In this document: positions 4,887 to 40,945 of the stretch, piece after piece
How the letters are laid out: every line of letters begins with the position of its first letter
Numbering within the stretch: the stretch's first letter is position 1
Program-made: the position numbers and the translations under genes
Assembly (NCBI RefSeq): GCF_025961205.1
Contig: NZ_JAOQNH010000003.1
Location: 950,501-1,014,500, forward strand
From: Azospirillum fermentarium
Lineage (GTDB): Bacteria; Pseudomonadota; Alphaproteobacteria; Azospirillales; Azospirillaceae
DNA: 64,000 nucleotides
Direction of reading: 5' to 3'
Notes under the pieces: model-generated
What the model was told of the DNA's origin: nothing
Seen by the model: only the letters and a program-made list of their open reading frames with translations
Databases searched by the model: none

Positions 4887-4890
4887 CTAG
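4887..4890. repeat. Target site duplication CTAG (right copy)
   Basis: Pairs with 3579-3582. Together they prove simple transposition into an intact DUF3732 gene. Confidence 0.9.
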
Positions 4891-5321
4891 CGGCGAGTCG
4901 CTGTCGTAGGTGCGCCGCCGGACTTTCACGACCGGGATCCCCAGGAGCCGGAGGATCAGGTCGCTGAAACTGAAGACGTCCTCACCGAAGATCGGCTCTG
5001 CCCGCGGCCTCATGGGCGCCGACACCATGTAGGTCTCGCCCGCGGCGGTCTGCCAGGTGACCTGCGCCGAACCGGCGTCCTGGGCGACCCGCTCGATGAC
5101 CACCGTGTTCGTGCCCATCCGCGCCTGCAACGCGACGGAGACGAGCTCCTGCTTGAGCGCCGGGGTGGCTGGGAACCGGCCGCCGAGGCAGAAGTCGATG
5201 AGGGCCGGGATGCTGGACTTACCGGCCGACATTTCGCCATGGAAGAACGAGACCCGTTCGGCGAAGCGCACCGTCTCGACGCTCGCACGGCAACGCAGCT
5301 GGAGGTACTCAAAGCGCAGCT

Positions 5322-7132: not shown

Positions 7133-7213
7133 CTCCTCACCATTGCGCTCGATGGTTTGTTCAGCCTTTAAGGCTCAGTCTCGACCAATAGGTATGCAGC
7201 AGGAAATCTGAGT

Positions 7214-7620
7214 TCACAAGAACTTCTTTTTCAGGTGGTAGGTGGTGACGCCGATGTGACCGGCTTCTCGAATCCGCTGCGCCAGTTCTGCATTTTTCGC
7301 ACGGACTTGCAGAGACGCGAACGGCAGCGACTTCTCGCTGCCAACTCGGAAGAACACCCCCTCCTGAACCAAGCCGAGGGGCAAGGCCTGCACCGGTAAC
7401 GGAAGCTCTCCGACCTCGTGGAGGAAGAGCGCGCCGTCAGCCGCACGCCCGGCGTAGCTGCGGCGCAGCGCGTTGGCCCCAATGAATGCCCCCCTTCGCG
7501 TGCACGAACACCTCGCTGCCGATCAGGTTTGCCGGGGTGGCGGCACAGTTCACCGCCATGAAGGGTGCCTCGACGCGCTGCGAAATCCGTTGGAGGAAGC
7601 TGGTCACCACCTCCTTACCT
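7214..7620 (-). pseudogene. Fragment of a sigma-54-dependent AAA+ activator (NtrC type)
   Basis: Read on the minus strand from 7620, the frame gives GKEVVTSFLQRISQRVEAPF and then VNCAATPANLIGSEVFVHAK, which is the region just after Walker A of NtrC-type activators. A shift in a run of six G (about 7487-7492) is needed to continue with GAFIGANALRRSY (the GAFTGA loop with T to I) and LFLHEVGELPLPVQALP (Walker B region). The frame ends at 7214. The receiver or GAF domain, most of the AAA+ lid and the DNA-binding domain are absent. This is a decayed remnant; no function is expected. Confidence 0.7.
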
Positions 7621-7815
7621 CATGGTGGGAGGATAGCTAACCGCCGGATCCTGCGCTCCACCATCAGCCAGTCATGCAAAACGCCCCGGCATAGCCATGT
7701 AAATTATTCCGGAGGAACTATGGAGTTTTCCACCCCGAAATCACGCATTGCATAGCGACAGTCCACGCTTCAGATGGCAGGTTTGTGCTGCCTGACGAAA
7801 GCATGGAGGCGGCGA

Positions 7816-8118
7816 ATGGGGGTGATGACGACCAAGCACTCCGAGAAGCGGGTGCGCCAACGCGGGGTAACGGACGACGTCCTCGATACCCTCGTTGGCT
7901 GGGCGGACATCGCCGTCCCGGTAGGCGGGGGTGACACCAGTCTTTGGCTGAGCCGGGAAGGAGCCGAGGAGCTTGCCGCCGAGGGGATCTCACGGCACCA
8001 CCTCGACCGCTTGAAGGGCTTGGCCGCGGTGGTCACCGGGGACGGCGTGGTCAAGACGGTGCTGGTGGTGCGCAAGTCGGGCCGGGGGAAGCGGCGCTAC
8101 CGCCGCGGGGCCAAATGA
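7816..8118 (+). CDS. Small DUF4258-like protein, possible toxin-antitoxin component
   Basis: 100 residues from ATG 7816, which has GGAGG six bases upstream. The start of the domain (TTKHSEKRVRQRGVTDDVLD) resembles the H-x-R-x-x-x-R-G-I/V opening of DUF4258 (RelE-like fold), and the end AAVVTGDGVVKTVLVV fits its last strands. A basic tail (KSGRGKRRYRRGAK) follows. The next gene starts 10 bases downstream and is broken by insertion sequences. A two-gene toxin-antitoxin arrangement is a guess from size, spacing and fold; no partner function is shown. Confidence 0.5.
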   Translation: MGVMTTKHSEKRVRQRGVTDDVLDTLVGWADIAVPVGGGDTSLWLSREGAEELAAEGISRHHLDRLKGLAAVVTGDGVVKTVLVVRKSGRGKRRYRRGAK

Positions 8119-8165
8119 GGAAGGCGTGATGAGCGACAAGCAGAAGCAAACCGTCAGCGAACTAG

Positions 8166-9024
8166 GCTCTGTGGACAAAGGGGCTTCCCAACGGAGGGAG
8201 AATCTGATTCAAGACTTCATTTGGATGGGAGGTCTTGATGGAGCGCGGGGAGATATCGGATGGCGAATGGGCGGTGATTGGCCCGCTTTTGCCTTCGGAG
8301 CGCGGGCGAGGCTGCCGGCCAGCCCATGACAATCGCCGTTTTTTCAACGGGATAAACTATGTTTTGCGTACTGGTATTCCCTGGCGGGACTTGCCGGAGC
8401 GCTATGGAAACTGGAATTCGATCTTTCGACGGTTCCGGCGCTGGTGTGTCCAAGGGGTCTTCGACGAGATCCTCGAAACGCTGGTCGAGTTGGGCATTAC
8501 CGACGACTGGAAGGATCAGATGGTCGATAGCACGACGGTTCGGGGTCACAGCCAAGCCGCGGGCGCAAAAGGGGGACCTGCGCGGCGGGATTTGGTCGTT
8601 CGCGCGGCGGCTTTACGAGCAAGATCCACGCACGGTGCGATCGGACCGGGCGGCCCCTGGCCTTCATCGTGACCGGGGGCGAGGCATCCGACAGCAAGCA
8701 ATTGATCCCTTTGATGGAAATCCCGCTGGAGATCCCCTCTCCCAAGGCCCTGCTCGCCGATGCCGGTTATGATAGCGATGCCAACCGTGAGCATTTGCTG
8801 ATCCGGGCTATCCGTCCGATCATCAAGCCGAACCCAACCCGCAAGACAATGCCCGCTTTTGACAAGGAGGCCTACAAGGCTCGCAACAAAATCGAAAGAA
8901 TGTTCAACAAACTCAAACAGATGAGGCGGGTCGCAACCCGTTATGACAAGACCCGCTCTTCCTTCATCGCCTTCGTCAAGCTCGCCGCTATTCGTATTTG
9001 GATACCAACCTTTGTCCACAGAGC
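8166..9024 (+). mobile_element. IS5-family insertion sequence (IS427/IS1031-like), complete, 859 bp
   Basis: Perfect inverted ends GCTCTGTGGACAAAGG and its complement, flanked by CTAG at 8162-8165 and 9025-9028. It is a different element from the 1,304-bp IS5 in this window. Confidence 0.92.
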
Positions 9025-9028
9025 CTAG
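8238..9028 (+). CDS. IS5-family transposase made by -1 frameshifting (orfA-orfB)
   Basis: OrfA (ATG 8238, GGGAGG upstream) reads ERGEISDGEWAVIGPLLPSE, then MVDSTTVRGHSQAAGAKGG. At 8567-8573 the heptamer A AAA GGG lies in phase for -1 slippage. After the slip the frame continues GFGRSRGGFTSKIHAR into orfB (TGGEASDSKQL, LADAGYDSD, NKIERMFNKLKQ), which rebuilds the normal DDE transposase (D in DSTTVR, D in ADAGYD, E in KIERMF). Frameshifted transposases are typical of this IS5 subgroup. The TAG stop (9026-9028) lies in the CTAG target duplication, so the site of insertion supplies the stop codon. Confidence 0.85.
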
Positions 9029-9109
9029 GGCGTGGAACGGCTTCAGGGTCAAAGACGGTGGAACCTGTCGCGGGCCAACAGTCAGCGTACCGTCCTCGAG
9101 GAGTTCTAG

Positions 9110-9947
9110 CAGGGCGCGGAAAAACGGACCGATGCGGTGGCATTGTCTCCGCTGAAGCTTGGAAATGGTGTTTTCGGGGCCTGTTTTGGTCTGGATGGCG
9201 CCTTTTTCCGCGCCCTCAGGCTCCTGGAGCCGCCATTCAGGCGGACTCCGGGATGATTATGCCGTTGTCAGCAGCTTGGGCAGACGGATCAGGTTATAGG
9301 CGGCGGCAGTCAGCGTGAACATCCAACCGACGCGGGCGGTGCCGCGGTGGCGGGTCTTGCGCAGCCCCGCCCCCTTGATCCAGCCGAAGACCTCCTCGAT
9401 CCGCTTGCGGATGCGCAAGGACACGGCATAGCCGGGGTGACGGGTGGTCCGGCCATCAATGGCTGAGCGGCGGTTGCTGGTGTTCTGGGCAACGTGCGGG
9501 GTGGCGCCCAGGCGGCGCATGTTCGCCACGAAATCCTTGGTGTCGTAAGCCTTGTCGGCGCCCAGCGTGATGCGGTGGCAGCCGGAGATGGCCTCGACCA
9601 TCGACACCGCCGCCTCGCGTTCGGCCAAGCCCGTAGCCGCCGTCAGCCGGACATCCACCACCAGAGCATGGCGGTTCTCCATCAGCGCGTGGCCCATGAA
9701 GGCCAGCTTCGCCGGCTGCCCGTTGCCCTTGCGGTAGAGACGCGCCTCGGGATCGGTTGTGGAGGCATGCGTTTCGTTGGACCGTTTCTCACCGTGAAAG
9801 TCGCGCTCGCCGTTGCGGCCCGGCCCCGGCGGCTCACCGCTGCCATCTTTGGGCCGGAAGCTCTTCACGCTGGCCCACGCCTCGATCAGCGTGCCGTCCA
9901 CCGAGAAGTGCTCGTCCGACAGCAGCGCCTTGACCCGCGGCTGATCC
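9110..9947 (-). mobile_element. IS5-family element, second copy, truncated by IS66
   Basis: It begins with the same CAGGGCGCGGAAAAA end as the copy at 3583, after CTAG at 9106-9109, and is colinear with it until 9947, where IS66 begins. The remaining ~466 bases of the element, including its other inverted end, are absent from the window. Confidence 0.92.
9257..9947 (-). pseudogene. IS5-family transposase fragment (C-terminal two-thirds)
   Basis: Encodes the C-terminal part beginning DQPRVKALLSDEHFSVDGTL and running to the normal end. All three DDE residues remain, but the N-terminal ~128 residues and the start are lost at the IS66 junction. The substitution relative to the first copy is at about 9355 and is silent. 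Confidence 0.9.
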
Positions 9948-9971
9948 GTAAGCATCCGCTGAGTACCGCGG

Positions 9972-11615
9972 TCAGGCAGCTTTTGCCTGCTCGCGCATCG
10001 CCTTCCACTCCCAGGGCAGGAGTTCGTGCAGGCGGTTTTGTGGCATGTCGTTGATGCGCGCCAGCACGTCGGCGAGCCAGGCCTGCGGGTCAACGTTGTT
10101 CAGCTTGGCGGTGGTGATCAGGCCATACATGATCGCCGCCCGCTGGCCGCCGCGATCGGAGCCGCAGAACAGCCACGCCTTCCTCCCGAGGGCGATCCCG
10201 CGCAGGCCGCGTTCGGCGGCGTTGCTCGTCAGGCACAGCCGGCCATCGCCGAGGAAGCGGGTGAAGCCGTCCCAGCGCGTCAGCATGTAGTCCATCGCCT
10301 TGGCCACGGGGGCATGGCGGGAGAGCCGGGCCCGCTCCGTCCGCATCCAGCCCTCCAGCGCGGCTACCAGGGTGACGCCATGCTCCTGGCGTGCCGCCAG
10401 CCGCTCGGCCGCCGGCTTGCCGTTCAAGGCACGCTCGAGATCGAAGAGGGCGTCGATGCGCGTCACGGCCTCCAGCGCCAGCGGCGAGATCGGCGGGGCA
10501 TCCTTGCCGCGCCTGGTGTTCGTAGCGATGTCGGCCAGCTTGAAGAAGCCGCGCCGGGCATGCGCCCAGCACAGCACGTCGCTGATCGGCCCCGGCTGTC
10601 GCTCGGGTTCGTACAGCCGGTTGTAGCCGGCGAACGCATCGGCCTGCAGCCAGCCTTTGAAGCCGGCCAGGTGCCGTTCGGGATGTTCGCCTTTGCGGTC
10701 GCGGGAATAGTGGAACAGCGCCACCGGTGGGGCTTGGCCGGCGAACGGCCGGTCATCGCGCACATACACCCACAGGCGCCCGGTATCGGTCTTGCCCTTG
10801 GCCAGCACGGGCACCGGGGTGTCGTCCCCATGCAACCGCTCAGCCGCCATCACATGCGCCGCGATCAGGTCGTGCAGCGGCTTCAGCACCGCGGCGGCGG
10901 TGCCCACCTGGTCGGCCAGGGTGGACAGGCTGAGCGGCACGCCCTCCCGCGCGAAGCGTTCGGCCTGCCGGTTCAGCGGCTGATGCTGGCCGAACTTCTC
11001 GAACAGGATGGTGGCCAGCAGGTTGGGGCCGGCCCAGCCCCGCGGGGTGGTGTGGAACGGTGCCGGCGGCTGGCTGATCGTCTCGCAGGCCCGGCAGGAG
11101 AACCGCTCGCGCACCGTCTGGATCACCTTCCACTGGCGCGGGATCACCTCCAGCGTCTCGGTAATCGTTTCGCCCAGCTTGCACAGCTTGTCCGAGCCGC
11201 AGCACGGGCAGGTCGCGGGGGCCGGCACAACGACGCGCTCGCGCGGCAGGTGGCCGGGAAAGGGCTGGCGCGAGGGCCGCTTGCGGGTGAAGGCCGTCAC
11301 CCCGGTGGTTCGGGCAGCGGCCTGCTCGGCTGCCAACTCGTCCTCACTGGCCGTCGCTTCCAGCTCTTCAAGCTGGAACTCCAACTGGTCCAGCAGGCGT
11401 GCCTTGCGCTCGGAGCGCGTGCCGTAGAGCTCGCGCCGGAGCTTCTCGATTTCCAGCTTCAGGCTGGCGATCAGCGCCTCGGTGTTCGAAGCCATCGCCC
11501 TGGCCCGCGCCGCTTCGGCTTCCGCCGCGTCCGCCCGCGCCTCGGCCTGCGCCAAGGCGGCGCGCAAGCTGGCGATGTCGTCGGCCACGGCGGCAGGGGG
11601 CGGGGCGGCGGTCAT
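9972..11615 (-). CDS. tnpC: IS66-family transposase TnpC
   Basis: 547 residues, normal length. An N-terminal coiled coil (LRAALAQAEARADAAEAEAA) is followed by the LRRELYGTRSE segment, a zinc finger (CPCCGSDKL and CRACETI) and the DDE core: DDTPVPVL (~270), QADAFAGY (~330) and NAAERGLRGIALGRK (~470). It is the catalytic transposase of the element. The frame is intact. Confidence 0.95.
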   Translation of the reverse strand: MTAAPPPAAVADDIASLRAALAQAEARADAAEAEAARARAMASNTEALIASLKLEIEKLRRELYGTRSERKARLLDQLEFQLEELEATASEDELAAEQAAARTTGVTAFTRKRPSRQPFPGHLPRERVVVPAPATCPCCGSDKLCKLGETITETLEVIPRQWKVIQTVRERFSCRACETISQPPAPFHTTPRGWAGPNLLATILFEKFGQHQPLNRQAERFAREGVPLSLSTLADQVGTAAAVLKPLHDLIAAHVMAAERLHGDDTPVPVLAKGKTDTGRLWVYVRDDRPFAGQAPPVALFHYSRDRKGEHPERHLAGFKGWLQADAFAGYNRLYEPERQPGPISDVLCWAHARRGFFKLADIATNTRRGKDAPPISPLALEAVTRIDALFDLERALNGKPAAERLAARQEHGVTLVAALEGWMRTERARLSRHAPVAKAMDYMLTRWDGFTRFLGDGRLCLTSNAAERGLRGIALGRKAWLFCGSDRGGQRAAIMYGLITTAKLNNVDPQAWLADVLARINDMPQNRLHELLPWEWKAMREQAKAA

Positions 11616-11694
11616 GGCGCCAGTTTACCTGGGATCACGCCTTCGAGCCGTCGCAATCTCCCCTGAACCGGCCCGTCGATTCACCGTGTCGCAG

Positions 11695-12042
11695 TCACCC
11701 TGCGGTCTCGGGACGCCAAGTCTTCTGCGGGTTGCGCCAGTCGATGCCTTCGAGCAGATAGCCCATCTGCCCAACCGAGATCGACACCGCGCCGTCCGCC
11801 GGCGTGGGCCAGATGAAACGGCCCCGCTCCAGCCTCTTCATGAACAGGCAACTGCCCTGGCCGTCATACCAGATGATCTTCACCAGATCGCCGCGGCGCC
11901 CGCGGAAGATGAAGAGATGGCCGCTGTGCGGGTCTTGGGCGAAGCGTTCCTGCACCAGCAACGCCAGGCTCGCCCAGCCCTTGCGCATGTCGGTGTGCCC
12001 GCTGGCCAGCCACACCCGCACCCCGCTCGGCACCGGGATCAT
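11695..12042 (-). CDS. tnpB: IS66 family accessory protein TnpB
   Basis: 115 residues with the family signatures SGVRVWLASGHTDMRKGW, HLFIFRGRRGDLVKIIWYDG and RLERGRFIWP. It is needed with TnpA and TnpC for IS66 transposition; the exact role is unknown. Its start overlaps the tnpA stop in ATGA at 12039-12042. Confidence 0.95.
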   Translation of the reverse strand: MIPVPSGVRVWLASGHTDMRKGWASLALLVQERFAQDPHSGHLFIFRGRRGDLVKIIWYDGQGSCLFMKRLERGRFIWPTPADGAVSISVGQMGYLLEGIDWRNPQKTWRPETAG

Positions 12043-12449
12043 GCCAGGGCACCGATGACGGCCGCCGCCAGGGCCGGGTTGACCGGCCCTTCCAGACGCA
12101 GGCGTGCCCCGCTGGGCAGGATGACCTCGAGGATCGCCGGGCTCGTGGCCGACGTCGCCGGAGGCGGCAATGGCGCACGGGGCTCCACGACCGGCAGTTC
12201 CGTGACGGTCGGCTCCGGCGTGATGGTCACCGCAGTGAAGCTGGGCGGTTCGCCCACGGCGATCCCCGTGGCCTTCATCAGCCCCCGCCAGCGATACAGC
12301 AGGCTTTCGTGCACGCCCAGCCGGCGGGCCACCTCCGTCACCACCACGCCGGGGCGGAACGCCTCCTCGACCATCCGGACCTTCTCCGCCGGCGTGTAGT
12401 TCCGCCGCCGCTCCGTCCCCGTCAGAACCTCGACCCGCTGGTAAGCCAT
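12039..12449 (-). CDS. tnpA: IS66 accessory protein TnpA (helix-turn-helix)
   Basis: 136 residues from ATG 12449. The N-terminal part (RRNYTPAEKVRMVEEAF, then VTEVARRLGVHESLLYRW) is the HTH region shared by IS66 TnpA and IS3 OrfA proteins. The C-terminal part is proline- and valine-rich and ends in the LPSGARLRLEG strand typical of IS66 TnpA. Confidence 0.92.
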   Translation of the reverse strand: MAYQRVEVLTGTERRRNYTPAEKVRMVEEAFRPGVVVTEVARRLGVHESLLYRWRGLMKATGIAVGEPPSFTAVTITPEPTVTELPVVEPRAPLPPPATSATSPAILEVILPSGARLRLEGPVNPALAAAVIGALA

Positions 12450-12535
12450 GACGTTTGCCACTCGTTTGCGTCCGCGCGATGACGCGCCACGCAAAACTCA
12501 GACGTCGGACCCTACTTTGCCAAGGCGGCGCTTAC

Positions 12536-12721
12536 CGGATGCGTACCTTCATGTCGCTTCTCCTTGCAGAAAGGATCACGCCCCTCCGCAATTGTGCGAC
12601 AGAGTTCTGCAAGGCACGAACCCGCGCGCCGCCGTCGGCCCAGGGGCGTTGCGGAATTGGTCGATTAAGCCAGCACTCAATAAATGCACCGCCCCACCCT
12701 TTAACACTAGCTGCTGCTAAA
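12536..12721. other. Non-coding stretch between IS66 and the four-gene operon
   Basis: These 186 bases hold no gene or repeat I can support. They lie just after the last gene of the operon that ends at 12722. They do not continue the truncated IS5 copy on the other side of IS66. Confidence 0.4.
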
Positions 12722-13685: not shown

Positions 13686-15233
13686 TCACGAATCTCCGAG
13701 ACGCGCAAGGATGCGGTCAACCAGTGACTTCGCTGCAACCCTATTTTGAGAACACTCGTAAATGAGCGTAATCATGCGCTGAATCACGGCGCGGTCGCCC
13801 TCAGGAAGCATGCCAAGGACATCAACACCACCCAAAGCCTGTGCGCTCGCTTTGACCAACCGGTCCTCCAGCTGCGTATAGCGTTCGGACAGAGTAGCGC
13901 GATCGTACTCGGCCAGCACACCTGCCTCCGCGACGCGCTTGATCTCGAACATCTCGCTGCGGATGTCCTCGACAATGTTCTCCGCCGTCGAACCGTCAAT
14001 GGCTCCTTGTTCAAGGATCTTCAGCTGCTGTTCGACCTTTAAGGCACCAATGTCGAAAGCCTTGATGCGGTTGCGAACTACCGAACTCGACCGGCACATG
14101 CGGCCGATCTGGTCACCAACCTCGCCCAAGCGGCTGAGGAGATGATCCAAGTGGACGTTCTGCTCGAAATTGTCGCGACGGCCATTGGGTACCAACCGCT
14201 CATCAAGGATATGGATTTCGCCTACCGTCCAGCTCGCGAAGCGAGACTCCGGAAAGACCTCCGCAAATATGCGATGGTCGCCAACTTGGATATTGCCCTT
14301 GCGCGCACGCAAGCCATTGATGCCCTCACCGCTCGGGATGGCACCAAAATATCCATGGTGCAGTAGCCACCCGACGGCACCAACTCCGCCATCCCGCCCC
14401 TCTATGGTTATGGGTTTAAAGCCAGCGAAGACATCACGCCGACCCTCGCCGTAAGCGTAGTCATCTCGGTACGGCCGAAAAATTGGTGTTTTCGCGTCAT
14501 TGATGTGGATATGGATTTCGCCAAGACTACCGAGGTGCTGAAGCAAGTGCTCGCAAATCTGCTCGCGAAACTTAAATTCGGGAGCAAACGGCACCGGAGC
14601 GACCTGCGCCAAGTAATGGGCAATGGCGTCCTGGTTCAGCAGCGTGTCCTTGCCGATGCGAATCGGCTTGACCAATTCAACCTCGTAGAAGTGTTCGGGC
14701 CAACCTTCAGGATCAATCTCGACGACCTTGGCCACCGCCTGAATAAGGTCGTGAAGCCCTCCCTGGTAGGACGGGTCGGATAGCAGCTTTTTGAAAACCC
14801 GACAGTCCCATCGAAGCTCCTGCACTACGGAGTCGTTCACTGCTCGCGAGCGAAATATCAATTCCTGGCAGTAACCGAGACCGGCCAAACGCCCAACACC
14901 ACGGAAGCCACGCGCTGATGTGCCGCGCTTGCGGCTGCCTCCAATCGCCGTCAGGCGCTTCGCAAACTCACCGTTGGGTACACCGGCACCGTTGTCGCGA
15001 ATTTTTACTGAGCGGGTTGGCTGGTTAAGGTCCAGGGTGATGTCAACTCGCCCGACCCTGTCGGCGCCCAGCACCCCAGTAGCACGCGCCACATCGATGG
15101 AATCAGCGGCATTCTGGATGTACTCCCGATAGATCGTCAGTGGATCGACGTACATGGCTGAACTGACGAGTTCCAGCACATCCTTGCCGATAACGATTTC
15201 GGCAGGGAGTGAGATGTTGGTGTGTTTGCTCAT
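13686..15233 (-). CDS. Hsp90-like (GHKL) ATPase
   Basis: 515 residues. The Bergerat ATP-binding fold is clear: N box with E37 and N41 in REYIQNAADSID, D80 in IRDNGAG, and the lid glycines GFRGVGRLAG (109-118). The middle domain resembles HtpG, with GRRDNFEQN near residue 345; a helical C-terminal region follows. It is shorter than HtpG (~620-640) and lacks its dimer end, so it is not the housekeeping chaperone. Hsp90-like ATPases of this type occur in several conflict systems. It starts five bases after the radical SAM stop. Its base composition is less GC-rich than that of the trb genes. Confidence 0.82.
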   Translation of the reverse strand: MSKHTNISLPAEIVIGKDVLELVSSAMYVDPLTIYREYIQNAADSIDVARATGVLGADRVGRVDITLDLNQPTRSVKIRDNGAGVPNGEFAKRLTAIGGSRKRGTSARGFRGVGRLAGLGYCQELIFRSRAVNDSVVQELRWDCRVFKKLLSDPSYQGGLHDLIQAVAKVVEIDPEGWPEHFYEVELVKPIRIGKDTLLNQDAIAHYLAQVAPVPFAPEFKFREQICEHLLQHLGSLGEIHIHINDAKTPIFRPYRDDYAYGEGRRDVFAGFKPITIEGRDGGVGAVGWLLHHGYFGAIPSGEGINGLRARKGNIQVGDHRIFAEVFPESRFASWTVGEIHILDERLVPNGRRDNFEQNVHLDHLLSRLGEVGDQIGRMCRSSSVVRNRIKAFDIGALKVEQQLKILEQGAIDGSTAENIVEDIRSEMFEIKRVAEAGVLAEYDRATLSERYTQLEDRLVKASAQALGGVDVLGMLPEGDRAVIQRMITLIYECSQNRVAAKSLVDRILARLGDS

Positions 15234-15238
15234 GATCC

Positions 15239-16876
15239 CTAAGCGACCTGCTTTTCAGATGTCTCAGCCTCGTCGGCAAGCTCCTGCAGTCCGGCGTCTT
15301 CCACCACCTCATCTTCGGCGAGGCCGAAATCGACATCAACCTTCATTCGGACAACCTTCTGCAGCTCCCAAATTCGACGTTCCTCCTTCTTCGTCGGTGG
15401 GATGTAAAACTCAAGCACCCTGCGCAAGATATCATCTTGCTCCTGGGTAAAACGGTCGCGCAGTTGTTCACGGCTCAGGCGGGGTTTTCCGGGCAGATCA
15501 AACATCACCTCAGAAAGCAGGCTCAAAAGATTCGTCTTCTGAGACTCAGTCATCCTGTTGAATGCTGCTTGGTACTCAGCGAACTCGGCTTCGCCACCGC
15601 CCCCCGGTTTGTACCAGAAGCGGTTAAAAATCATGTGATGCGGCCTCATGAGCAAGCTCATGAACTCATCGACCGAATCGCCGAAAGCCTCGCGAAAGAA
15701 GTCAGGAGTGCCAGAAACGATACCGTGGGTGGCTTGTAGGATGACCTGGACTGACCGCAATTGGTGGCGGGTCCACTTCGGGCCAACATGCGAACGGTCA
15801 GTGAGGTCCACAGGTTGGTAGCGCATGGGGAAACTGAAGATGCGGATACCCAACTCCTCGTTAAGGCGGACGTTCAGGTACATGCGCTCGAACAGGTCAG
15901 CCGGAGCTTCCTTGAAGTTGTATAGCATGTAGTTTGACAAGTCCTTCAGGCCATTGGCCTCGGCTTGTCGGATGGCTGTTTCATAGTCGTCCCGAAAGCC
16001 CAAATGGTCGAAGGCAATTCGGAGGGGGCTGACACAGACCCGCGCCAATTGCTTCATAAGCTCCGGATTCTTCGCCAGCTCCCTTGCGTCCACGCCTTGG
16101 TTAAAGTCGACGCGACGCTGGATGGCGACGCCCCTGCGGGTGATAGTAGCTCCCCGGCCGAAGCCTAGGTCTACCACTTCATCCATAATGTCCTTTAGCT
16201 TGGGCGAGGCAGTGATGTTATTGTCCATGAAGATGAGATCTTTCTTCTCGCCGTAACGGCGCTCAATCTCACGGACAACGGCGGTGATAGACGGCGTTTC
16301 CCGCAGACCGCCCTCCAGTTTTGGAACGCCGCAGAAACTACATGTGCGGATGCAGCCTCGGGAGGCATAGAGGAAGTAGCCATCACGAACGGGGTACTTG
16401 TAGTCCACCTGATCGAGAATGCTGTAGTCTGGCACCAGTGACTCAATGGGGGTCCCGCTCGTGTCCTCGGCGTAAAGTTCCTCCTCAAATTCATCCAGCT
16501 GCAAGGAAACGGCAGGCGGCTTGTCGAGCAGGCCGGAGATGAACCGGATGCCGCGCCAGCGCGGTTCCGATATAAAGCGGCCGTTCATCAGCGACGCAGC
16601 GATGCCGCCAACGAAAACCTTGTTGGCTTGGCCACGCACGACATCGAGGGCAAAATCGATTGCCCGAGAGATGCGATCGTACTCGAACGAGAACAGCGTG
16701 GTGACGTAGACGCGATCCCATGCGGTACCGAGGACTGACTTATCCTCCCCCTTGATGAAGCGCACGTTGTCGCCCTTGCCATGCGGCCCATGGTAGGACG
16801 CAATTTTCATCAGCCCCAGGGGCGGATACTTGTTCCGGTATCCCGGCTCGATGAGCAGGATATTCTTACTAGGCAT
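15239..16876 (-). CDS. Radical SAM enzyme with N-terminal cobalamin-binding-like domain
   Basis: 545 residues from ATG 16876. The opening MPSKNILLIEPGYRNKYPPL and the KVFVGGIAASLMNG segment resemble the B12-binding domain that precedes many radical SAM cores. The cluster motif is C-IRT-C-SF-C (CxxxCxxC, ~172-179) in YASRGCIRTCSFCGVP; it binds a [4Fe-4S] cluster and splits S-adenosylmethionine. The ending is acidic and helical. A TTG start at 16945 is possible but has no better ribosome site. The substrate is unknown. Sitting between a DGQHR protein and a GHKL ATPase, it may modify a nucleic acid or a peptide; that is inference. Confidence 0.82.
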   Translation of the reverse strand: MPSKNILLIEPGYRNKYPPLGLMKIASYHGPHGKGDNVRFIKGEDKSVLGTAWDRVYVTTLFSFEYDRISRAIDFALDVVRGQANKVFVGGIAASLMNGRFISEPRWRGIRFISGLLDKPPAVSLQLDEFEEELYAEDTSGTPIESLVPDYSILDQVDYKYPVRDGYFLYASRGCIRTCSFCGVPKLEGGLRETPSITAVVREIERRYGEKKDLIFMDNNITASPKLKDIMDEVVDLGFGRGATITRRGVAIQRRVDFNQGVDARELAKNPELMKQLARVCVSPLRIAFDHLGFRDDYETAIRQAEANGLKDLSNYMLYNFKEAPADLFERMYLNVRLNEELGIRIFSFPMRYQPVDLTDRSHVGPKWTRHQLRSVQVILQATHGIVSGTPDFFREAFGDSVDEFMSLLMRPHHMIFNRFWYKPGGGGEAEFAEYQAAFNRMTESQKTNLLSLLSEVMFDLPGKPRLSREQLRDRFTQEQDDILRRVLEFYIPPTKKEERRIWELQKVVRMKVDVDFGLAEDEVVEDAGLQELADEAETSEKQVA

Positions 16877-16981
16877 TCGACGCTCGCTGCGACCTCGTTC
16901 GTCCACAATATAGCCGTCCGGCCTCGGCTTGTCGATCCGCTCCAAACCGCCCTGTGCCAGAATCCATTAGCGCTACCGGCG

Positions 16982-19258
16982 TCACGCCGATTCCAGAGCC
17001 TTCTCGCCGACGATGTGCGCTTTGACCTTGATGTAGATGGACCTCACCCAGGCCACCTCGTCCTTCGATAAAACGCCCTTTTCCGGATGTGCTGTGGTTT
17101 GGCGCGCCTTAGACAGCTTCGCAATCCACCGAACGGCATCGCCCTTTTTCACTTTCTCCCCGAGCGCGTAGCTGTCCTGGAATATGTCCCAGTTGTGGAC
17201 CGCGATGCTCTGGTAGGTTGCCAGCGACAGATACTGCCACAGCGGCTTCTCGCCATTGTCATTGTTAGCTCGCTCAAAGCACTCCTTACGGATGGGCTGC
17301 GGCACACCCTGCCACCACCATGCATCGTTTTCGGTGCCAAACTTCTGCTTCAATCGCGCAATGACGTCGTTGTAGAGGATCTTGTTGATATCCTTGATAA
17401 TAAGGTCGGCTTCCTGAGTCCCCTTCTCATCCCTGTCCTTCAGGTACTCCGTGAGGTCCTTGCTCGTGAATTGCGGTATGGCGTCGTGGATGATACCCAT
17501 CATCGACAGATAGTTCTTTTTCACACCGTCGAGGGCCTGTCGGTCACGGAAGGCCTTCACCTGGGTGGCGTCGGCCGTGCGGAAGAAGTTGATGATGGGC
17601 TGTACCAACGGGGCCACGCGCTCGACGAGGTCGTCGGCGTCCAAGTGGATTGCCTTCACCTGTTGGCTATCTTCGACATAGGCAATCAACTCTTTCAGGA
17701 GACGCATCAAGGCGCGTAAGCCGTTGTTGGTGCACAGAAAACCGCCTTTAGCATCGCCGAGATCCCAGTTGGCCGGTACGCCTTTGGCAAACAGTGCAAA
17801 GTACGCAACCAACACGTCGGCCGCTTTCTCGGCCGTCTCCTCGTAGTCACCGGAAAGGGCGCTGAGTTGCCCAAGTTGATAAACGTGCGGATTCGGCGGG
17901 GCGTGCGTGACCGTACCGAGAAATCGATTCTCCTTAATCCCATCAGCCAGGGAGGTCAGCGTCAAGCAACGGAAGTGGTCTTTATCCTTGTCAACGGTCA
18001 ACACCCGATTGCGGATGGGCGACTTGGCCATAGCTCCAAGGCGTAGCGCAACCCGTGGGTACAGCGCCTCGAATTGCTTCACTGGGTCCTCCGACCCGTA
18101 ATTCAAGTTCGAGTACAGCTCGTTCAGGAGCCCCCGCGACACCTTCACCTGCTTAGAGTTAATATCAATAAACAGCTCCATTTCGTCGGCCGCATCCATG
18201 TTCTCATAAGCAAGAACCGGAACGACGTGATTTTTCCCCTTTTCTGCAAAAGAAAAGCCATAAAGTCGATGCTGGCCGTCGATGACCCACGCGGAGCCAT
18301 AGAGCCCCGGGAGCTTTAGCGTTCCGAAAGTACTGTTTTCGAAGCTCTCATGCTTTTCAAACTGAAGCGGGCTCTTGACTTTAAAGTTGATAACGATATT
18401 AGTAGGAAACTGCCCACCCTCGTCGATGTAAGCGGCAATACTCTTAAGCCGTGCAGGTTTCACCATACGTTGGTATGTGTCGAGGTCGGCCGACTTGTGG
18501 CTGATATAAGCAATCTTCATCAGGTCATAAGGCGATATCAGGAAATTGTAGAAGGTTGTGCCTCCCATTTTGCCGCGCGTCGCGGGCACCTCAAGACGCA
18601 GCCCATCGACACCTTCGCCCTCCAGGTAGCGGGCGAGGAATTGGAAACGAGCAGCGCCCTTCACATAGTCGATGAGCCTACCATAGTAGGCCAAATCTTG
18701 CTCGGTGATGACCGCTATGTTGGACTTAGCCGCCCGCTCTTTGTCGGCCTTACGCCAATCCACATTACGGGTTGCAATCGCAAACTTAATTTTCAGCTTT
18801 GGAGTCTTGCCATAGTGAGAGTGGATGGCGTGTATGACATCCTGAGCGTTTGCATTAATCTTGTCGATCAGCCCCTTGACGGGCTTGGAACCTTCCTCTT
18901 CCGCGTGAGTGCATTCGACGACGAAGACAGTATCTTCGTCTTTGGCAAAGACGTCGAACTGGCGCCCCTTGAAGGTCAGGAGCCGATCCTCGTTTAACTC
19001 ATTGAAACCGAGGCGATAAAGCAGGCTCCAAACGTCGTCTTCTAGCTGGCGGTCATCGGGCTTCCGCTTGCGCACACGAACAGAGGTTTTGTTCCACTTC
19101 GCGACCTCCCAACCGTCGGCCTCCTCGCCCTTGACCTTGATAACCAAGGCCTCCTTTTTGGCGGCCGTGACCGTCTTCTCGTCGTGCTCCTTAGAGCGCC
19201 GCACGAAAACCGCCTTCGCAGCTTCACCGTTGACGATGCCGTTAGGAAACTCAGCCAT
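16982..19258 (-). CDS. DGQHR-domain (DndB-like) protein fused to REase-like N-terminus
   Basis: 758 residues. Residues ~72-120 form a PD-(D/E)XK-like unit: LEDDVWSLLYRLGF, then GRQFDVFAKDEDTVFVVECTHA, in which the usual E-x-K is E-C-T. Residues ~320-335 carry the signature VIDGQHRLYGF, followed by VPVLAYENMDAADEMELF and IDINSKQVKVS, as in DndB/DpdB-type DGQHR proteins that act with DNA modification systems. The long C-terminal part is helical and unassigned. It is the first gene of the four-gene operon. The DndA/C/D/E and DpdA partners are absent, so it is not a standard Dnd or Dpd locus. Confidence 0.82.
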   Translation of the reverse strand: MAEFPNGIVNGEAAKAVFVRRSKEHDEKTVTAAKKEALVIKVKGEEADGWEVAKWNKTSVRVRKRKPDDRQLEDDVWSLLYRLGFNELNEDRLLTFKGRQFDVFAKDEDTVFVVECTHAEEEGSKPVKGLIDKINANAQDVIHAIHSHYGKTPKLKIKFAIATRNVDWRKADKERAAKSNIAVITEQDLAYYGRLIDYVKGAARFQFLARYLEGEGVDGLRLEVPATRGKMGGTTFYNFLISPYDLMKIAYISHKSADLDTYQRMVKPARLKSIAAYIDEGGQFPTNIVINFKVKSPLQFEKHESFENSTFGTLKLPGLYGSAWVIDGQHRLYGFSFAEKGKNHVVPVLAYENMDAADEMELFIDINSKQVKVSRGLLNELYSNLNYGSEDPVKQFEALYPRVALRLGAMAKSPIRNRVLTVDKDKDHFRCLTLTSLADGIKENRFLGTVTHAPPNPHVYQLGQLSALSGDYEETAEKAADVLVAYFALFAKGVPANWDLGDAKGGFLCTNNGLRALMRLLKELIAYVEDSQQVKAIHLDADDLVERVAPLVQPIINFFRTADATQVKAFRDRQALDGVKKNYLSMMGIIHDAIPQFTSKDLTEYLKDRDEKGTQEADLIIKDINKILYNDVIARLKQKFGTENDAWWWQGVPQPIRKECFERANNDNGEKPLWQYLSLATYQSIAVHNWDIFQDSYALGEKVKKGDAVRWIAKLSKARQTTAHPEKGVLSKDEVAWVRSIYIKVKAHIVGEKALESA

Positions 19259-19554
19259 TGCCCCCCCAGACTGCGCGCCTCAAGGCTGCGTGCCTACGCC
19301 AACAGCCCTACCCCAAATGATGGGAAAGGCTACCATACGGTTGAGATGGGAGAAAGCTCCGCACGTCGTCTGAGCACCACACTTTGTACCGGATTATAAC
19401 GCGACTTCCAAATCCTGCTCTTTCCCCAGCGCTCGGGCTTAGGCCAGACGCTCCTTCGCGTTCCAACAGGTACAGAACATGCGCGACATCGTCGGCCACT
19501 CGATGTCTGGACACAATGCGGACACAGATGGACCATACCGATTCGCCGGACACG

Positions 19555-19586
19555 AAAAAGCCAGCAACCCCTTGGGATTGCTGGCT
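19555..19586 (-). terminator. Rho-independent terminator after the tRNA-fMet fragment
   Basis: AGCCAGCAA at 19559-19567 pairs with TTGCTGGCT at 19578-19586. On the minus strand the stem is followed by TTTTT (19559-19555). It sits a few bases after the tRNA 3' end and was probably the terminator of the original tRNA gene. Confidence 0.8.
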
Positions 19587-19590
19587 GATT

Positions 19591-19635
19591 TGGATGCGGG
19601 GGCCGGATTTGAACCTGCGACCTTCAGGTTATGAG
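19591..19635 (-). repeat. Partial initiator tRNA-fMet (3' half), integrase attachment site
   Basis: The minus strand reads from the anticodon loop CTCATAACCTGAAGG through GTCGCAGGTTCAAATCC to CCCCCGCATCCA. This matches the 3' half of an initiator tRNA with anticodon CAT, except for one T-stem change and the base before CCA. The 5' half is missing: the match stops at about 19635. A tyrosine integrase gene lies next to it, so this is almost certainly an att site made by integration into a tRNA-fMet gene. Being a partial copy, it is not a working tRNA gene. Confidence 0.82.
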
Positions 19636-19823
19636 TTCGTTTTCCGGCCCCTGCACGCACGTTTCCGGCACTACGACAGAGTATCCGATTGCACTATAAT
19701 ACCTTGTTTCCATTGATATTTTTCGGCGACCAAACTACGCTTCAGTTTCATCGGAAGCGCGCTCTTTTCCTCCCAAGTGATTCCGATTTGATTCCGGAGA
19801 TTCCGGCGCTCGTGGGGTGCTCC

Positions 19824-21068
19824 ATGGCCAAGATCACGAAACGGTCCGTCGATGCCGCCGTCCCCGGCCAGGAAGAGTTCTTCCTCTGGGACGAAGAGCT
19901 GAAGGGCTTCGGACTGCGCGTCTATCCCTCGGGCCGGAAAATGTATCTGGCCCAGTTCCGGGCCGGCGGCCGCCTGCGCCGCGTCAACATCGGCCCCCAT
20001 GGCGTCCTGACACCCGATGTCGCCCGGACCGAAGCCATGAAGCATCTATCCGATGTCCGGCGCGGCAGCGACCCGGCGTCCGAACGCGACCGGCGCAAGG
20101 CCTCCCCCACCATGAAGGAGTTCGGCAAGCGCTTCCTGGAGGACCACGTCGCCTCCCACTGCAAGCCGACCACCCGGGCCGAATACAAACGCTCCATCGA
20201 CCTGTTCATCAACCCCAAGCTCGGCAGCCATCGCATCATCGACGTCAGCCGCGCCGACGTGGTCGAGCTTCACCAATCCTTGAAAGCGACCCCCTATCAG
20301 GCCAACCGCACCTTGGGCGTTCTCTCCGTCATGTTCACCGTCGCCCACACCTGGGGCGTCCGGACCGATGGCATCAACCCGTGCTGGAAGGTGAAGCGCT
20401 ACAAGGAGGTCAAACGCGAACGCTACCTCACGCCGGACGAACTCGCCCGCATCGGCAAGGTGCTGCGCGACTCCACTTCCGAACCGGAAGCGGTCAATTG
20501 CATCCACCTCCTCCTTCTGACGGGCTGCCGCCTCAGCGAAATCCAGAAGCTCAAATGGGAGCACGTCGATCTCAGGGCTGGCGTGCTCCGACTGCCGGAT
20601 TCCAAGACCGGGGCGAAACTGGTGACGGTCGGGAAGGCCGCCGTTGAAGTGCTCAAGGGCATCACCAGGATGGTGGACAACCCCTATGTCATCACCGGCC
20701 AGGTCGAAGGCCAGCATCTGACCGACATGCAGCGTCCCTGGCGCCGGCTGCGCAAGCGCGCCGGGCTGGACGACCTGCGCATCCACGACCTGCGGCATTC
20801 CTTCGCCTCCGACGCGCTCCAGCTCGGCGAAGACCTGCCGATGATCGGCCGCCTGCTCGGGCACACCCAGGTCCAGACGACCGCCCGCTACGCCCACCTC
20901 AAGACCGATCCGATCAGGGTGGCCGCCGACAAGGTGGCGGAGGCCATTGCGGTCGCCCTCACCCGCCCGCCCAAGAAGGACGATGCATCGAAAGCGACGG
21001 CCGGCCCCCAGGACGACCGGCCGGATGAAGACGCCCACCTCTACCAGGAACATATTGATATTTTTTGA
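19824..21068 (+). CDS. int: Tyrosine recombinase / integrase (tRNA-fMet-targeting)
   Basis: 414 residues from ATG 19824 (MAKITKRSVDAAVPG). The N-terminal DUF4102-like arm-binding region is typical of P4-type and tRNA-site integrases (ELKGFGLRVYPSGRKMYLAQ). The catalytic domain has R in LLTGCRLSEIQ, H-x-x-R in IHDLRHSFAS, and H and Y in LGHTQVQTTARYAHL. It joins the island to its att site at 19591-19635. The frame extends upstream to 19689, but the sequence homology begins at 19824. The gene appears intact. Confidence 0.93.
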   Translation: MAKITKRSVDAAVPGQEEFFLWDEELKGFGLRVYPSGRKMYLAQFRAGGRLRRVNIGPHGVLTPDVARTEAMKHLSDVRRGSDPASERDRRKASPTMKEFGKRFLEDHVASHCKPTTRAEYKRSIDLFINPKLGSHRIIDVSRADVVELHQSLKATPYQANRTLGVLSVMFTVAHTWGVRTDGINPCWKVKRYKEVKRERYLTPDELARIGKVLRDSTSEPEAVNCIHLLLLTGCRLSEIQKLKWEHVDLRAGVLRLPDSKTGAKLVTVGKAAVEVLKGITRMVDNPYVITGQVEGQHLTDMQRPWRRLRKRAGLDDLRIHDLRHSFASDALQLGEDLPMIGRLLGHTQVQTTARYAHLKTDPIRVAADKVAEAIAVALTRPPKKDDASKATAGPQDDRPDEDAHLYQEHIDIF

Positions 21069-21093: not shown

Positions 21094-21117
21094 GACAGGA
21101 AGCGCATGGAGATTTTG

Positions 21118-21558
21118 ATGTCAGCCCGACCGAAGCGCAACCCGGTCAAGCTGGTGCCGCTGGCCAACCGCATGGAACGTCGGATCGACGACCTGGACGG
21201 CAACGTCGTGTTGCGTCAGGACTTCAAGGGCATGGCCGATGACGATCAGATCGGCCGCGGCATGCGGACGCTCGTCCGGAAGGGAAAGATCGTCCGGATC
21301 GGTCAGGGCATCTATGCCAAGGCGACCGTCGGCCCCTTGAGCGGGAAGATCCTCCCCCGGAAGGACATCACCGACCTGGCCCGCGAGGCCATGAGCCGGC
21401 TCGGCTATGAGGTGGTGCCAACCCGGTGGGAACGGGATTACGCGCAGCGCAAGACCGAGCAGGTTCCTCTCGGCCGGATGGTCGGCGTCACCAAGAGGGT
21501 CAGGCGCACGATCTCCTGGGAGGGACGCAGCGTTGAATTTGAGCGCCGTCGCGGATAA
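21118..21558 (+). CDS. AbiEi-type antitoxin (DUF6088-like), first AbiE locus
   Basis: 146 residues. It is an N-terminal winged-helix domain (GNVVLRQDFKGMADDDQIGR, then LVRKGKIVRIGQGIYAKATV) followed by a short C-terminal region. This is the form of AbiEi antitoxins of the DUF6088 type, which repress their own operon and counter the AbiEii nucleotidyltransferase by a type IV mechanism. GGAG at 21108-21111 supports ATG 21118. The toxin gene behind it is frameshifted and cut, so this antitoxin has no intact local partner, although a second AbiE pair lies at 30.9 kb. Confidence 0.75.
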   Translation: MSARPKRNPVKLVPLANRMERRIDDLDGNVVLRQDFKGMADDDQIGRGMRTLVRKGKIVRIGQGIYAKATVGPLSGKILPRKDITDLAREAMSRLGYEVVPTRWERDYAQRKTEQVPLGRMVGVTKRVRRTISWEGRSVEFERRRG

Positions 21559-22280
21559 CGGCTTCATCGACGCGGTCGCCGTCGACCTCGGGATCCCTAC
21601 GGCGCTGGTCGAGAAGGACTGGTACGTCGTCCAGGTTCCGCGCGTCATCGCCGGGCACACGGAACTTGCCGGCCATGTGCCGGTGTTCGATGGCGGGACG
21701 TCGCTGTCGAAGGGGTTCGGCATCATCAAGCGGCTGTCGGAGGACATCGACTTCTCAAGGTGATCGTTCCGGAAGCGGCGAGCAAAAGCGCCCGCTCCAA
21801 GGGCTTCAGCGATTGCCGCAAGGCCATCCTCGACGCGCTCCGACAGCAGGGCTTCACCTGGGACGACAAGACCCTGCTGGTCGGAAAGAACAGCGCGTTT
21901 TTCCAGGCGCTGCTCACCTATCCGCGCGAGTTTCCCATGCCTTACGGCTTCCGGCCGGAACTCAAGATCGAAGTGACCTTCGAGCCGCCCCGGCTGGCCA
22001 CCATCAGCCATCCGGTTTCCTCGTTCGTCGTCACGGGCAAGCGTTTCGATCCCGAGGTGCCCATGATCGCCTGCGTGGACCCGCTGAAGATCGCCGCCGA
22101 CAAGGTATCGGCGTTCGCGTGGCGGGCGAAGGCGATGCTCGACGCAGCCAAGCGGAAGGAGGCCAGGGACCGCGACGGCACCTTGGTGCGCCACCTGCAC
22201 GACCTCGCCGCACTGGAGCCGCGGATTGTGGAAGCGGCAGACTTCGCAGCCGGTGCGCATGCTCTGATGGAAAAGGACAT
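21533..22280 (+). pseudogene. AbiEii-type nucleotidyltransferase toxin, frameshifted and truncated
   Basis: Start is probably TTG 21533, with GGGAGGG upstream. The first frame reaches the motif region FDGGTSLSKGFGIIKRLSED and IDFS, then stops at 21761. Continuing at 21760 in another frame gives KVIVPEAASKSARSKGF and on to PLKIAADKVSAFAWR and RHLHDLAALEP. Joining the two needs one inserted base at about 21756, so a single-base deletion has broken the toxin. The 3' end is lost at an IS21 fragment near 22280. Confidence 0.8.
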
Positions 22281-22482
22281 TGATGGACCGCTGCGTCGCC
22301 TACGCCAAGGCGCACCGCCATCCCGAGTTGCGCGAGCAGACCGTCTGGGAGGCCTTCGAGGCGGAGCGGCCGAGCCTGGTTCCCTACGCTGGCCGCTTCG
22401 ACGGCTTCCACGCCGTTCCGGCCTCGGTCTCCAAGACCTGCCTGGTGCGCTTCGACACCAACCGCTACTCCGTGGCGGCGAA
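22281..22482 (+). mobile_element. IS21 family IstA transposase fragment
   Basis: About 67 codons (RCVAYAKAHRHPELREQTVW, then FDGFHAVPASVSKTCLVRFD and NRYSVAA) match the middle of IstA. Both flanks change abruptly, into AbiEii sequence on the left and IS66 sequence on the right. No IS21 ends and no istB are present. Confidence 0.75.
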
Positions 22483-23761
22483 CCGCGGCAACCTGCCGGC
22501 CGATCTGCCGCGCGAGGAGATCCTCATCGACGTCGCCGACAAGACCTGCCGGTGCTGCGGCGGCGCGCTGCATCCCATCGGCGAGGATGTCTCACAACGC
22601 CTGGATCTCGTCCCGGCCCGCTTCCGGGTGCTGGTGACCCGCCGGCCCAGGTACGCCTGCCGCCGCTGCGAAGAGGGCGTCGTACAGGCCCCGGCGCCGG
22701 CGCGCATCGTGGAGGCCGGCATCCCCACCGAGGCGCTGATCGCCCACGTGCTGGTGTCCAAGTATGCCGACCATTTGCCGTTGTACCGCCAAGCTCAGAT
22801 CTACGCGCGTCAGGGCGTCGATCTCGACCGCTCGACGCTGGCCGACTGGGTTGGACGGGCTGCCTGGTACCTGCGGCCCCTGCACGAGCGGTTGCTGGCC
22901 AACCTGAAAGCCTCGGGCAAGCTGTTCGCCGACGAGACGACGGCGCCGGTGCTCGATCCCGGACGGGGCAGCACCAAGACCGGCCAGCTCTGGGCGTACG
23001 CGCGCGATGATCGCCCCTGGGGCGGGCCGGAGCCGCCGGCGGTGGCCTACGTCTATGCCCCGGATCGCAAGGCGGAACGCCCGGTGGCGCACCTGCAGGG
23101 ATTCGCCGGCGTGCTCCAGGTCGACGGCTATGCCGGTTATCGCAAGCTGGCCGAGGGCGGGGCTGTGCGCCTCGCGTTCTGCTGGTCGCATGTCCGCCGG
23201 GGCTTCTACGATCTCCAGACCGGCGGCTCCGCGCCGGTCGCCAGCGAAGCCCTGCTGCGCATCGCCAAGCTGTACGCGGTGGAGGCGGAGATCCGCGGCC
23301 GTGACGCCGAAGCGCGCCGCCGGGAGCGGCAGGCCCGCACGGCGCCGCTGATTGCGGAGCTGAAGGCGTGGCTGGAGAAGCAGCTCGCAACGGTGTCGCG
23401 CAAATCGACGCTGGCCGAGGCGATCCGCTACGCGCTCAGCCGCTGGGAGGGGCTGACGCTGTTCCTCGACGACGGGCGGCTGGAGATCGATAGCAACAGC
23501 GTGGAGCGCTGCATCCGCCCGCTGGCCCTGACGCGCAAGAATGCACTGTTCGCTGGCAGCGACGGCGGCGGTGAGCACTGGGCGACGATCGCGTCGCTGG
23601 TGGAAACCTGCAAGCTGAACGGCGCCGATCCGCAGGCTTGGTTCGCCGAGGTGCTGACCAAGCTCGCCAGCGGCCATCCGATCACCAAGCTCGATGAACT
23701 CCTGCCCTGGGGCCATACCCGGCAGGCGGAACCCGCCGTGGCCTGAGAACACCGCTTACGC
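22483..23761 (+). mobile_element. IS66-family element fragment (tnpC 3' part and one end)
   Basis: Starts inside tnpC (RGNLPADLPREEILIDVADK), has the zinc region CRCCGGAL and CRRCEEG, DETTAPVLDPG, QVDGYAGYRK and NSVERCIRPLALTRKN, and ends with the IS66 terminus CGCTTAC just after the stop at 23746. tnpA, tnpB and about the first 90 residues of tnpC are missing. It fuses in frame to the IS21 piece and gives one 488-codon ORF from 22280 to 23746. This IS66 differs from the one at 9948-12535. Confidence 0.85.
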
Positions 23762-34146: not shown

Positions 34147-35073
34147 TCAGAGCGCGTCTTTCAATTCCGGCACCGCCTTGAAAAGGTCGGCGACGAGGCC
34201 GTAGTCGGCAACCTGGAAGATCGGTGCCTCCTCGTCCTTGTTGATGGCGACGATCACCTTGCTGTCCTTCATGCCGGCGAGGTGCTGGATCGCCCCGGAG
34301 ATGCCGACGGCGATGTACAGCTCCGGCGCCACGATCTTGCCGGTCTGCCCGACCTGGTAGTCGTTCGGCACGTACCCGGCGTCCACTGCCGCGCGGCTCG
34401 CCCCCACCGCGGCCCCCAGCTTGTCGGCCACCGCCTCCAACAGGTGGAAGTTCTCCCCCGACTGCAGGCCGCGACCGCCGGAGATCACCACCCGCGCCGA
34501 CGTCAGCTCCGGACGCTCCGACGTGGACAGTTCCGCCGACACGAACGACGATACCCCCGGATCAGCCGCCGCCGCGAGCGCCTCCACCGGTGCCGAACCG
34601 GTCTCGGTGACCGGCTCGAAGGCGGTGGTGCGCACCGTGATCACCTTCACGCCGTCCGACGACCGGACCGTGGCGATCGCGTTGCCAGCGTAGATCGGCC
34701 GCTCGAAGGTGTCCGCCGCCACCACCGCGGTGATCTCCGAGATCTGTGCAACGTCGAGCAGCGCCGCCACTCGTGGCAGCACGTTCTTGCCCATCGAGGT
34801 CGCTGCCGCCAGCACATGGCTGTACTGCGGGGCGAGGCTGACCAGCAGCGCCGCCAGCGGCTCGGCCAGCTGGTGCGTGTACACCGCGTCGTCGGCCAAC
34901 AGCACCTTGACCACACCCGTAGCCCTGGCGGTCGCCTCGGCGACGGCACCGGCGCCCTGCCCGGCGACCAGGACGTGGATCTCGCCGCCGATCTTTTGCG
35001 CGGCGGCGATGACGGACAAAGTGACGCGCTTGAGCGTCGCGCTGTCGTGTTCGGCAAGGATCAGGATCGCCAT
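34147..35073 (-). CDS. etfA: Electron transfer flavoprotein subunit alpha
   Basis: 308 residues. N-terminal ETF domain ([20 protein letters not shown]) and C-terminal FAD-binding domain with [56 protein letters not shown] and [15 protein letters not shown]. With EtfB it takes electrons from acyl-CoA dehydrogenases and passes them to ETF-quinone oxidoreductase. It starts one base after the etfB stop. It is the last gene of the catabolic run. An acyl-CoA dehydrogenase in the same run makes a dedicated pair plausible, although etfAB genes commonly exist as housekeeping copies too. Confidence 0.97.
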
Positions 35074-35074
35074 G

Positions 35075-40930: not shown

Positions 40931-40945
40931 CTTCTTCCCCACGGA

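Follow-up and report, generated by a model that had tools for sequence, protein, structure and literature searches.

Integrative and conjugative elements (ICEs) at tRNA-Met genes have been described in Mesorhizobium, together with IntM, an integrase of the tripartite ICEs of this genus (PMC8627217, PMC9973854), and ICEMlSymR7A integrates at tRNA-Phe (PMC8627217). The Mesorhizobium tRNA-Met ICEs resemble the ICE of our window (the whole 64,000-nucleotide stretch analysed, C3:950501-1014500) in being alphaproteobacterial, in relying on a site-specific integrase and in targeting a methionine tRNA; the cited passages speak of tRNA-Met without naming it as initiator or elongator (PMC8627217, PMC9973854). 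Tripartite ICEs are defined by three integrases (IntS, IntG and IntM) and three att pairs; the search for att sites of the window ICE covered one pair. In the case of A. lipoferum 4B AZO_p2 and the A. oryzae plasmid unnamed6, the type IV secretion system (T4SS) regions follow the same order of Trb, TraG, ParA, RepA, DUF2285 and DUF736 genes as the window ICE, with DNA that is ~82% identical; a point of difference is that A. lipoferum has a site-specific integrase of its own annotated nearby. ICEMlSymR7A reportedly carries an RlxS-like protein, DUF736 and DUF2285-type genes, a T4SS and an integrase at the att site, a gene content that recurs in the window ICE. ICEMlSymR7A differs in its target gene, and the RlxS-like match of the window ICE is short and lies far below the cut-off. 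The islands at metV in E. coli are likewise said to sit in an initiator tRNA gene, as here, in a different host.

With considerable confidence, we read the site studied here as the attR junction of an ICE in a tRNA-fMet gene, with the end of an older, X-type element at its left (Table 1). The initial annotation had recognised a 45-base 3' fragment of an initiator tRNA that starts in the anticodon loop, flanked by a terminator and an integrase, and these identifications hold. Base-by-base comparison places C32, the first base of the loop, at 19635 and the end of the encoded CCA at 19591; the fragment is 96% identical over 47 bases (E 6e-15) to a complete tRNA-Met(CAT) of the same genome, and no tRNA is called in the window by ARAGORN, or by Rfam at the gathering threshold. 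As a bare motif the adjoining hairpin is not above chance (one found against a mean of 0.6 in shuffles), and a similar terminator follows the intact tRNA-fMet in G016, G011 and G017. The integrase matches PF00589 at E 1.1e-25, together with arm-binding and SAM-like domains, and a separate gene call prefers the ATG at 19824 over 19689; its frame is open and contains the stretches TGCRLSE, HDLRHSF and LGHTQVQTTARY, which we take to be catalytic.

Table 1. Features at and to the right of the junction (window positions).
Feature	Position	Strand	Basis
Arm-type site of second element type (X), end of older left-hand element	19509-19526	-	Motif at both ends of 24-kb element in G017:C389
Terminator-like hairpin 3' of tRNA fragment	19559-19586	-	Motif search; similar terminator in relatives
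tRNA-fMet 3' fragment, nucleotides 32-76 (attR core)	19591-19635	-	tRNA identity from C32 on
CTCATAA, 7-base anticodon loop, inferred overlap (strand exchange) region	19629-19635	-	First bases of shared block in 22 loci with fragment
Arm-type site of ICE (P arm), tandem CGGAATCA repeats	19778-19797	-	Same motif at far (P') end of relatives
Tyrosine integrase, 414 aa	19824-21068	+	Pfam domains, relatives, open frame
AbiEi-like antitoxin	21106-21558	+	PADLOC
AbiEii-like toxin, apparently split over two frames	21533-23010	+	Pfam, PADLOC, gene calls
Cargo: acyl-CoA-type catabolic operon (ETF, MMPL, DUF1329, DUF1302, AMP ligase, thiolase, acyl-CoA dehydrogenase)	34147-48137	-	
trb-type type IV secretion genes and TraG-like coupling protein	53094-63959	-	Pfam

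According to the mechanism proposed here, strand exchange by the integrase between attP and the tRNA would have taken place inside the anticodon loop; at the far end, the tRNA gene would have been restored by the 3' half that the element carried, and the original 3' half would have been displaced to 19591-19635. Rightward from 19635, the ICE would then run in the order integrase, AbiE pair, cargo, trb genes, coupling protein, ParA, RepA, DUF736, helicases, ParB-like and ArdC. The tRNA that it entered would already have been joined on its other side to an X-type element, whose arm and terminator would be what remains at 19509-19586; we infer that X arrived before the ICE.

The link between integrase and target was examined in relatives. 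A scan with one genome per species returned 29 integrase relatives (45-92% identical), 26 of them usable in having the integrase start and some upstream DNA; L230, L231 and L232 were excluded because the amino end is missing. In 22 of these 26 loci the integrase is preceded, at a distance of 160-294 bases, by a tRNA-fMet fragment starting at C32; the hosts of the 22 include Azospirillum, Magnetospirillum, Sphingomonas, Acidiphilium, Stappia, Roseomonas, Hirschia, Brucella, Rhodospirillaceae and several other Acetobacteraceae. The four exceptions comprise two contig ends within or at the core (L215, L219), one locus with unrelated DNA upstream (L220) and one, with an integrase of 46% identity, preceded by the 3' end of a different tRNA (L226). 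In a plasmid collection, the best 3 of 2685 records matching the integrase (78.9-93.1% identity) all show the fMet fragment. Moreover, 20 of the 26 loci have a tandem motif like CGGAATCA-AAT-CGGAATCA, with at most four substitutions, 15-28 bases ahead of the integrase match; the motif is also present beyond the intact tRNA in relatives and is taken as the predicted arm-type binding site. Among 12 genomes searched, 10 contain this arm motif, which is absent from G020 and G023 at two mismatches. Integrases related to that of the window thus appear to aim mostly at the initiator tRNA, and the element is a further member of a common class of islands. Among the matches listed from the open-licence literature, none was recognised as describing a group of alphaproteobacterial integrases with the initiator tRNA as target; the comparison defines the att core precisely and adds arm sites and a range of hosts for an integrase group that mostly faces tRNA-fMet.

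To the right of the junction, the PADLOC match to the longer AbiEii frame starts inside the profile, and the AbiE-type pair is followed by a transposase and a CHAT/TPR protein (Pfam). Both a T4SS and a coupling protein are recognised, through T2SSE (TrbB), TrbE, CagX (TrbG), TrbI, TrbL and T4SS-DNA_transf domains, with the smaller T4SS subunits assigned only by position and similarity to A. lipoferum; positions 44001-64000 are ~82% identical, over about half their length, to replicons of A. lipoferum and A. oryzae. Beyond the window lie genes for ParA, RepA, a DUF2285-type regulator, DUF736, a 1721-aa helicase, a strawberry-notch-type helicase and ArdC. Two components count against reading the whole as an ICE: the ParB-like protein beyond the window is named by sequence and has no Pfam match, and the relaxase candidate, a 247-aa RlxS-like protein, scores 55 bits against a cut-off of 850. 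Regarding the att sites, the attB is located inside a tRNA gene whose 3' end it matches, as seen in the fragment from C32 to A76 and in an empty/occupied pair of relatives; the attR end is present here, the far end falls in masked bases, and both ends are present in four relatives selected for that. The ICE may be mobile at present; it may also be decaying, given the apparently split AbiEii gene and the IS elements close by.

The left side of the junction is what separates our reading from that of a plain genomic island, with chromosome to the left and island to the right. The initial annotation took the site for an island boundary at tRNA-fMet; a boundary made by an integrase of this family stands, while the chromosomal left flank gives way to an X-type arm. 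Starting at the fragment and continuing through the terminator for ~40 bases more, the window and G017 are 87% identical over 127 bases. In G017:C389, an intact tRNA-fMet is followed by the same terminator and the motif TGTGTCCGCA-NN-GTGTCC, and a near-identical X motif recurs ~24 kb on, at the other end of a 24-kb element, where it adjoins a further tRNA-fMet fragment and a tyrosine integrase distinct from that of the window. This continuity past the terminator and through the X arm makes a plain island improbable, against the fact that in G016 and G011 the terminator follows tRNA-fMet without an X arm. A plain island also draws on what the rest of this genome holds: at one mismatch or fewer, the X arm motif occurs once in the readable sequence, at the window copy, and the X integrase was not found in C3 910-1233 kb or C2 392-692 kb, where the best match is the window ICE's own integrase (39%). 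With neither its own integrase nor a second arm site found here, the left-hand element is at best a relic. Because the X arm is single and the X integrase was not found, X in this genome is predicted to be a relic end only, so that the junction would set the ICE against the relic end of an X-type element.

Several further features lie on this left side. A DpdB/DndB-like protein, a radical SAM protein (below the Pfam cut-off) and a HATPase protein are encoded at window 13686-19258 and are possibly cargo of the left-hand relic element; none of the left-flank proteins called in C3 925-970 kb matches the X element of G017. GC is lower, at 0.557, for window 15001-20000. A CD-NTase-type cyclase of a CBASS-like system (PADLOC, 588 bits) lies at window 493-1851 and an LmuA-like protein (70 bits) at 5870-7123. 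The IS copies at window 3572-12546, assigned to the IS5 and IS66 types from the names of matching plasmid entries, are 99.8-100% identical to copies on C2, and are a possible route for deletions at arm scars.

That the island extends to the right, as initially proposed, is borne out by the fragment facing the integrase in 22 of the 26 loci and by complete elements in relatives. G041, G043, G042 and G045 were picked because both element ends lie on one contig, and all four share a single layout: intact tRNA-fMet, arm site, element, integrase, arm site, fragment. The elements measure 88 kb in G041, 58 kb in G043, 17 kb in G042 and 15 kb in G045. When queried with the proteins of the window ICE, G041 and G043 contain Trb, TraG, relaxase and DUF736 genes; the other two look like smaller islands, since only a TrbB piece (G042) or a relaxase match (G045) was found between their ends. 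In G021, the gene order read inward from the P' arm is the same as in the window ICE backbone. Two results count against the ICE reading: no integrase of the window type was found in the 100 kb inward from the fragment and P' arm of G021, and neither a backbone gene nor a second end in the 54 kb inward from the integrase of G051.

The far end of the window ICE falls in unreadable sequence. The last called gene of the ICE ends at C3:1052.25 kb, beyond which the bases are masked (N). By comparison with relatives, the hidden partner end is probably situated ~38 kb past the window, immediately after C3:1052.3 kb, beside a second tRNA-fMet gene that would probably be preceded by an rRNA operon; this position is expected because of the G021 order from the P' arm and a remnant of a ParB-like gene near the arm on C2. 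The ICE would then measure ~82-90 kb. A 16S rRNA search gave no match in this genome and one match in 9 of 14 control genomes, and the order 23S-5S-fMet was found in all eight same-genus loci checked; from the missing 16S match and the relatives' gene order, the unreadable stretches are probable rRNA operons.

The initial annotation had placed an intact tRNA-fMet outside the window and had proposed searching for it or for a second copy of the fragment. The search located one complete readable gene in this genome, at C3:1169922-1169998, on the minus strand like the fragment and ~200 kb to its right, and two further 3' fragments on C2 (492525-492569 and 590111-590157). An element spanning 200 kb and ending at this visible gene would have the layout of the complete elements: the strand of the gene is the right one, and a terminator and a P' arm (1169829) come after it. 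We nonetheless judge it quite unlikely. In G021 the P' arm lies 7 kb from a homolog of this genome's own gene 1051211, followed in order by ArdC, ParB-like and helicase genes, which places the ICE end near C3:1052 kb. The intervening sequence also argues against so long an element: the translations of C3 1062-1169 kb read as ordinary replicon genes, C3 1094-1114 kb has matches on other Azospirillaceae replicons, in genes for transketolase and TRAP transporters, and the genes of C3 1125-1142 kb have close homologs beside the rRNA-linked tRNA-fMet region of G007. Finally, the P' arm at C2 590229 is followed by IS66 and ParB-like remnants, indicating that arms persist as scars. An intact gene does lie outside the window, to the right and on the same strand, but the visible copy is probably not the partner of the fragment.

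Within the tRNA, the crossover had initially been placed in the anticodon loop or 5' of it. The loop is supported, but a position 5' of C32 is not: tRNA identity begins at C32 in all 22 loci with a fragment, and the exchange therefore lies at C32 or 3' of it. An empty/occupied pair sets the breakpoint at C32: A. argentinense plasmid DNA matches the DNA after the intact tRNA-fMet in G012:C99 at 93.3% over 1500 bases from C32 rightwards, against 18 of 60 matching bases leftwards. On the other side, the attL gene and attR fragment of Acetobacter musti differ from position 47 on, with each T stem self-paired, and the exchange therefore lies 5' of position 47; the 7-base loop CTCATAA is the likely overlap region. 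A crossover in the T loop, with the hybrid T stem of the fragment marking the exchange point, was suggested by A51 standing opposite G63, as though two alleles had met between positions 52 and 62; it was set aside as very improbable on the Acetobacter musti pair, in which a T-loop exchange would require mismatched parents to give two different, self-paired stems. A decayed tRNA pseudogene unrelated to the integrase would suit the two base changes and the missing ARAGORN call, but the joint occurrence of fragment and integrase across many genera, with a single breakpoint, leaves it next to no probability. An imperfect inverted repeat around the fragment (19595-19607/19643-19655, 12 of 13 paired), through which the element end might pair with the tRNA 3' strand, exceeds every one of 400 shuffles, both in the window and in one relative, L228; it was dropped as a part of the site, not being general in 24 loci (permutation p 0.053).

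The tRNA alleles add a further layer. Relative to the genus consensus tRNA-fMet, the fragment has two changes, T63 to G and A73 to T; relative to the one readable complete copy of the genome, it differs at positions 50 and 51, carrying consensus bases there and the unusual bases at 63 and 73. The readable complete gene has a T stem of GTCGG/CCGGC and U73 and adjoins an ICE arm, whereas in 24 other same-genus genomes the intact copies that were read carry A73 and GCAGG/CCTGC. Of 385 alphaproteobacterial genomes searched for the exact sequence between position 31 and CCA (position 73 free), this one alone gave a match and the 384 others none, in a search that misses copies in masked stretches; elsewhere, 38 of 41 genomes had a readable initiator gene or fragment. 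Both copies in Roseomonas rosea carry U73, which is therefore tolerated by itself. The two changes in the fragment were initially ascribed to drift; the changes themselves are confirmed, and drift is one reading only, gene conversion or capture of an older allele being as likely because both changes equal bases of the genome's own complete copy. As conversion donors, the genome's other tRNAs were rejected: the 43 others of 44 distinct sequences differ from the gene's last 28 bases at seven or more positions. The attL and attR T-stem alleles differ, with paired changes, in two of the four relatives with both ends (Magnetospirillum G041 and Acetobacter musti G045), which would fit the element's allele replacing that of the host at integration. 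More tentatively, and with doubt outweighing belief, elements might rewrite the host initiator tRNA: insertion would swap nucleotides 39-76 for the element's allele, the U73 allele would have been imported by the element, and the fragment, half consensus and half new, would record the change. Regular replacement of initiator-tRNA alleles at integration would mean that an essential gene is edited by a mobile element.

The initial annotation had considered the initiator tRNA an unusual target, on the ground that it is essential. This view fails on several counts: same-genus genomes have up to five full-length tRNA-fMet matches (G013), the gene is intact at the far end of the complete relatives, most integrase relatives face tRNA-fMet, and serine recombinases also occur beside it. 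We compared 76 tRNA-fMet 3' halves, 72 from same-genus genomes and four from this genome, 67 of which were classed as intact by the bases before C32. The ICE arm is found on five of the 76 copies and the X arm on two, and a serine-recombinase motif lies within 2.6 kb downstream of nine of the 67 intact copies (L142, L144, L158, L164, L175, L177, L179, L182 and L194), reading toward the tRNA. A fragment followed by a serine recombinase gene occurs on C2 of this genome and in G045 and G051. At least three element types (the ICE group, X and serine-recombinase elements) lie at and stack on tRNA-fMet in Azospirillum, where the gene follows rRNA operons, and this stacking bears on genome plasticity in multi-replicon bacteria.

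In G002, the genes after a serine recombinase of this kind code for ArdC, ParB-like and helicase proteins resembling those of the window ICE. Parts of at least two ICE backbones are present at C2 457-590 kb. This stack of ICE remnants (C2:457000-590957) includes an integrase sibling that matches only to residue 111, with an IS at 490704-492015, a second ICE backbone at ~509.9-552 kb, a TraA-like relaxase at 581922-585635 (below the NCBIfam cut-off) and an arm scar at 590229. Another type of 5' partner is seen at L150 and L163 (G021:C9 and G014:C36), where a tRNA-fMet fragment with an ICE arm has TTTCAGG on its 5' side and lies ~130 bases after DNA matching this genome's tRNA-Gln(CTG).
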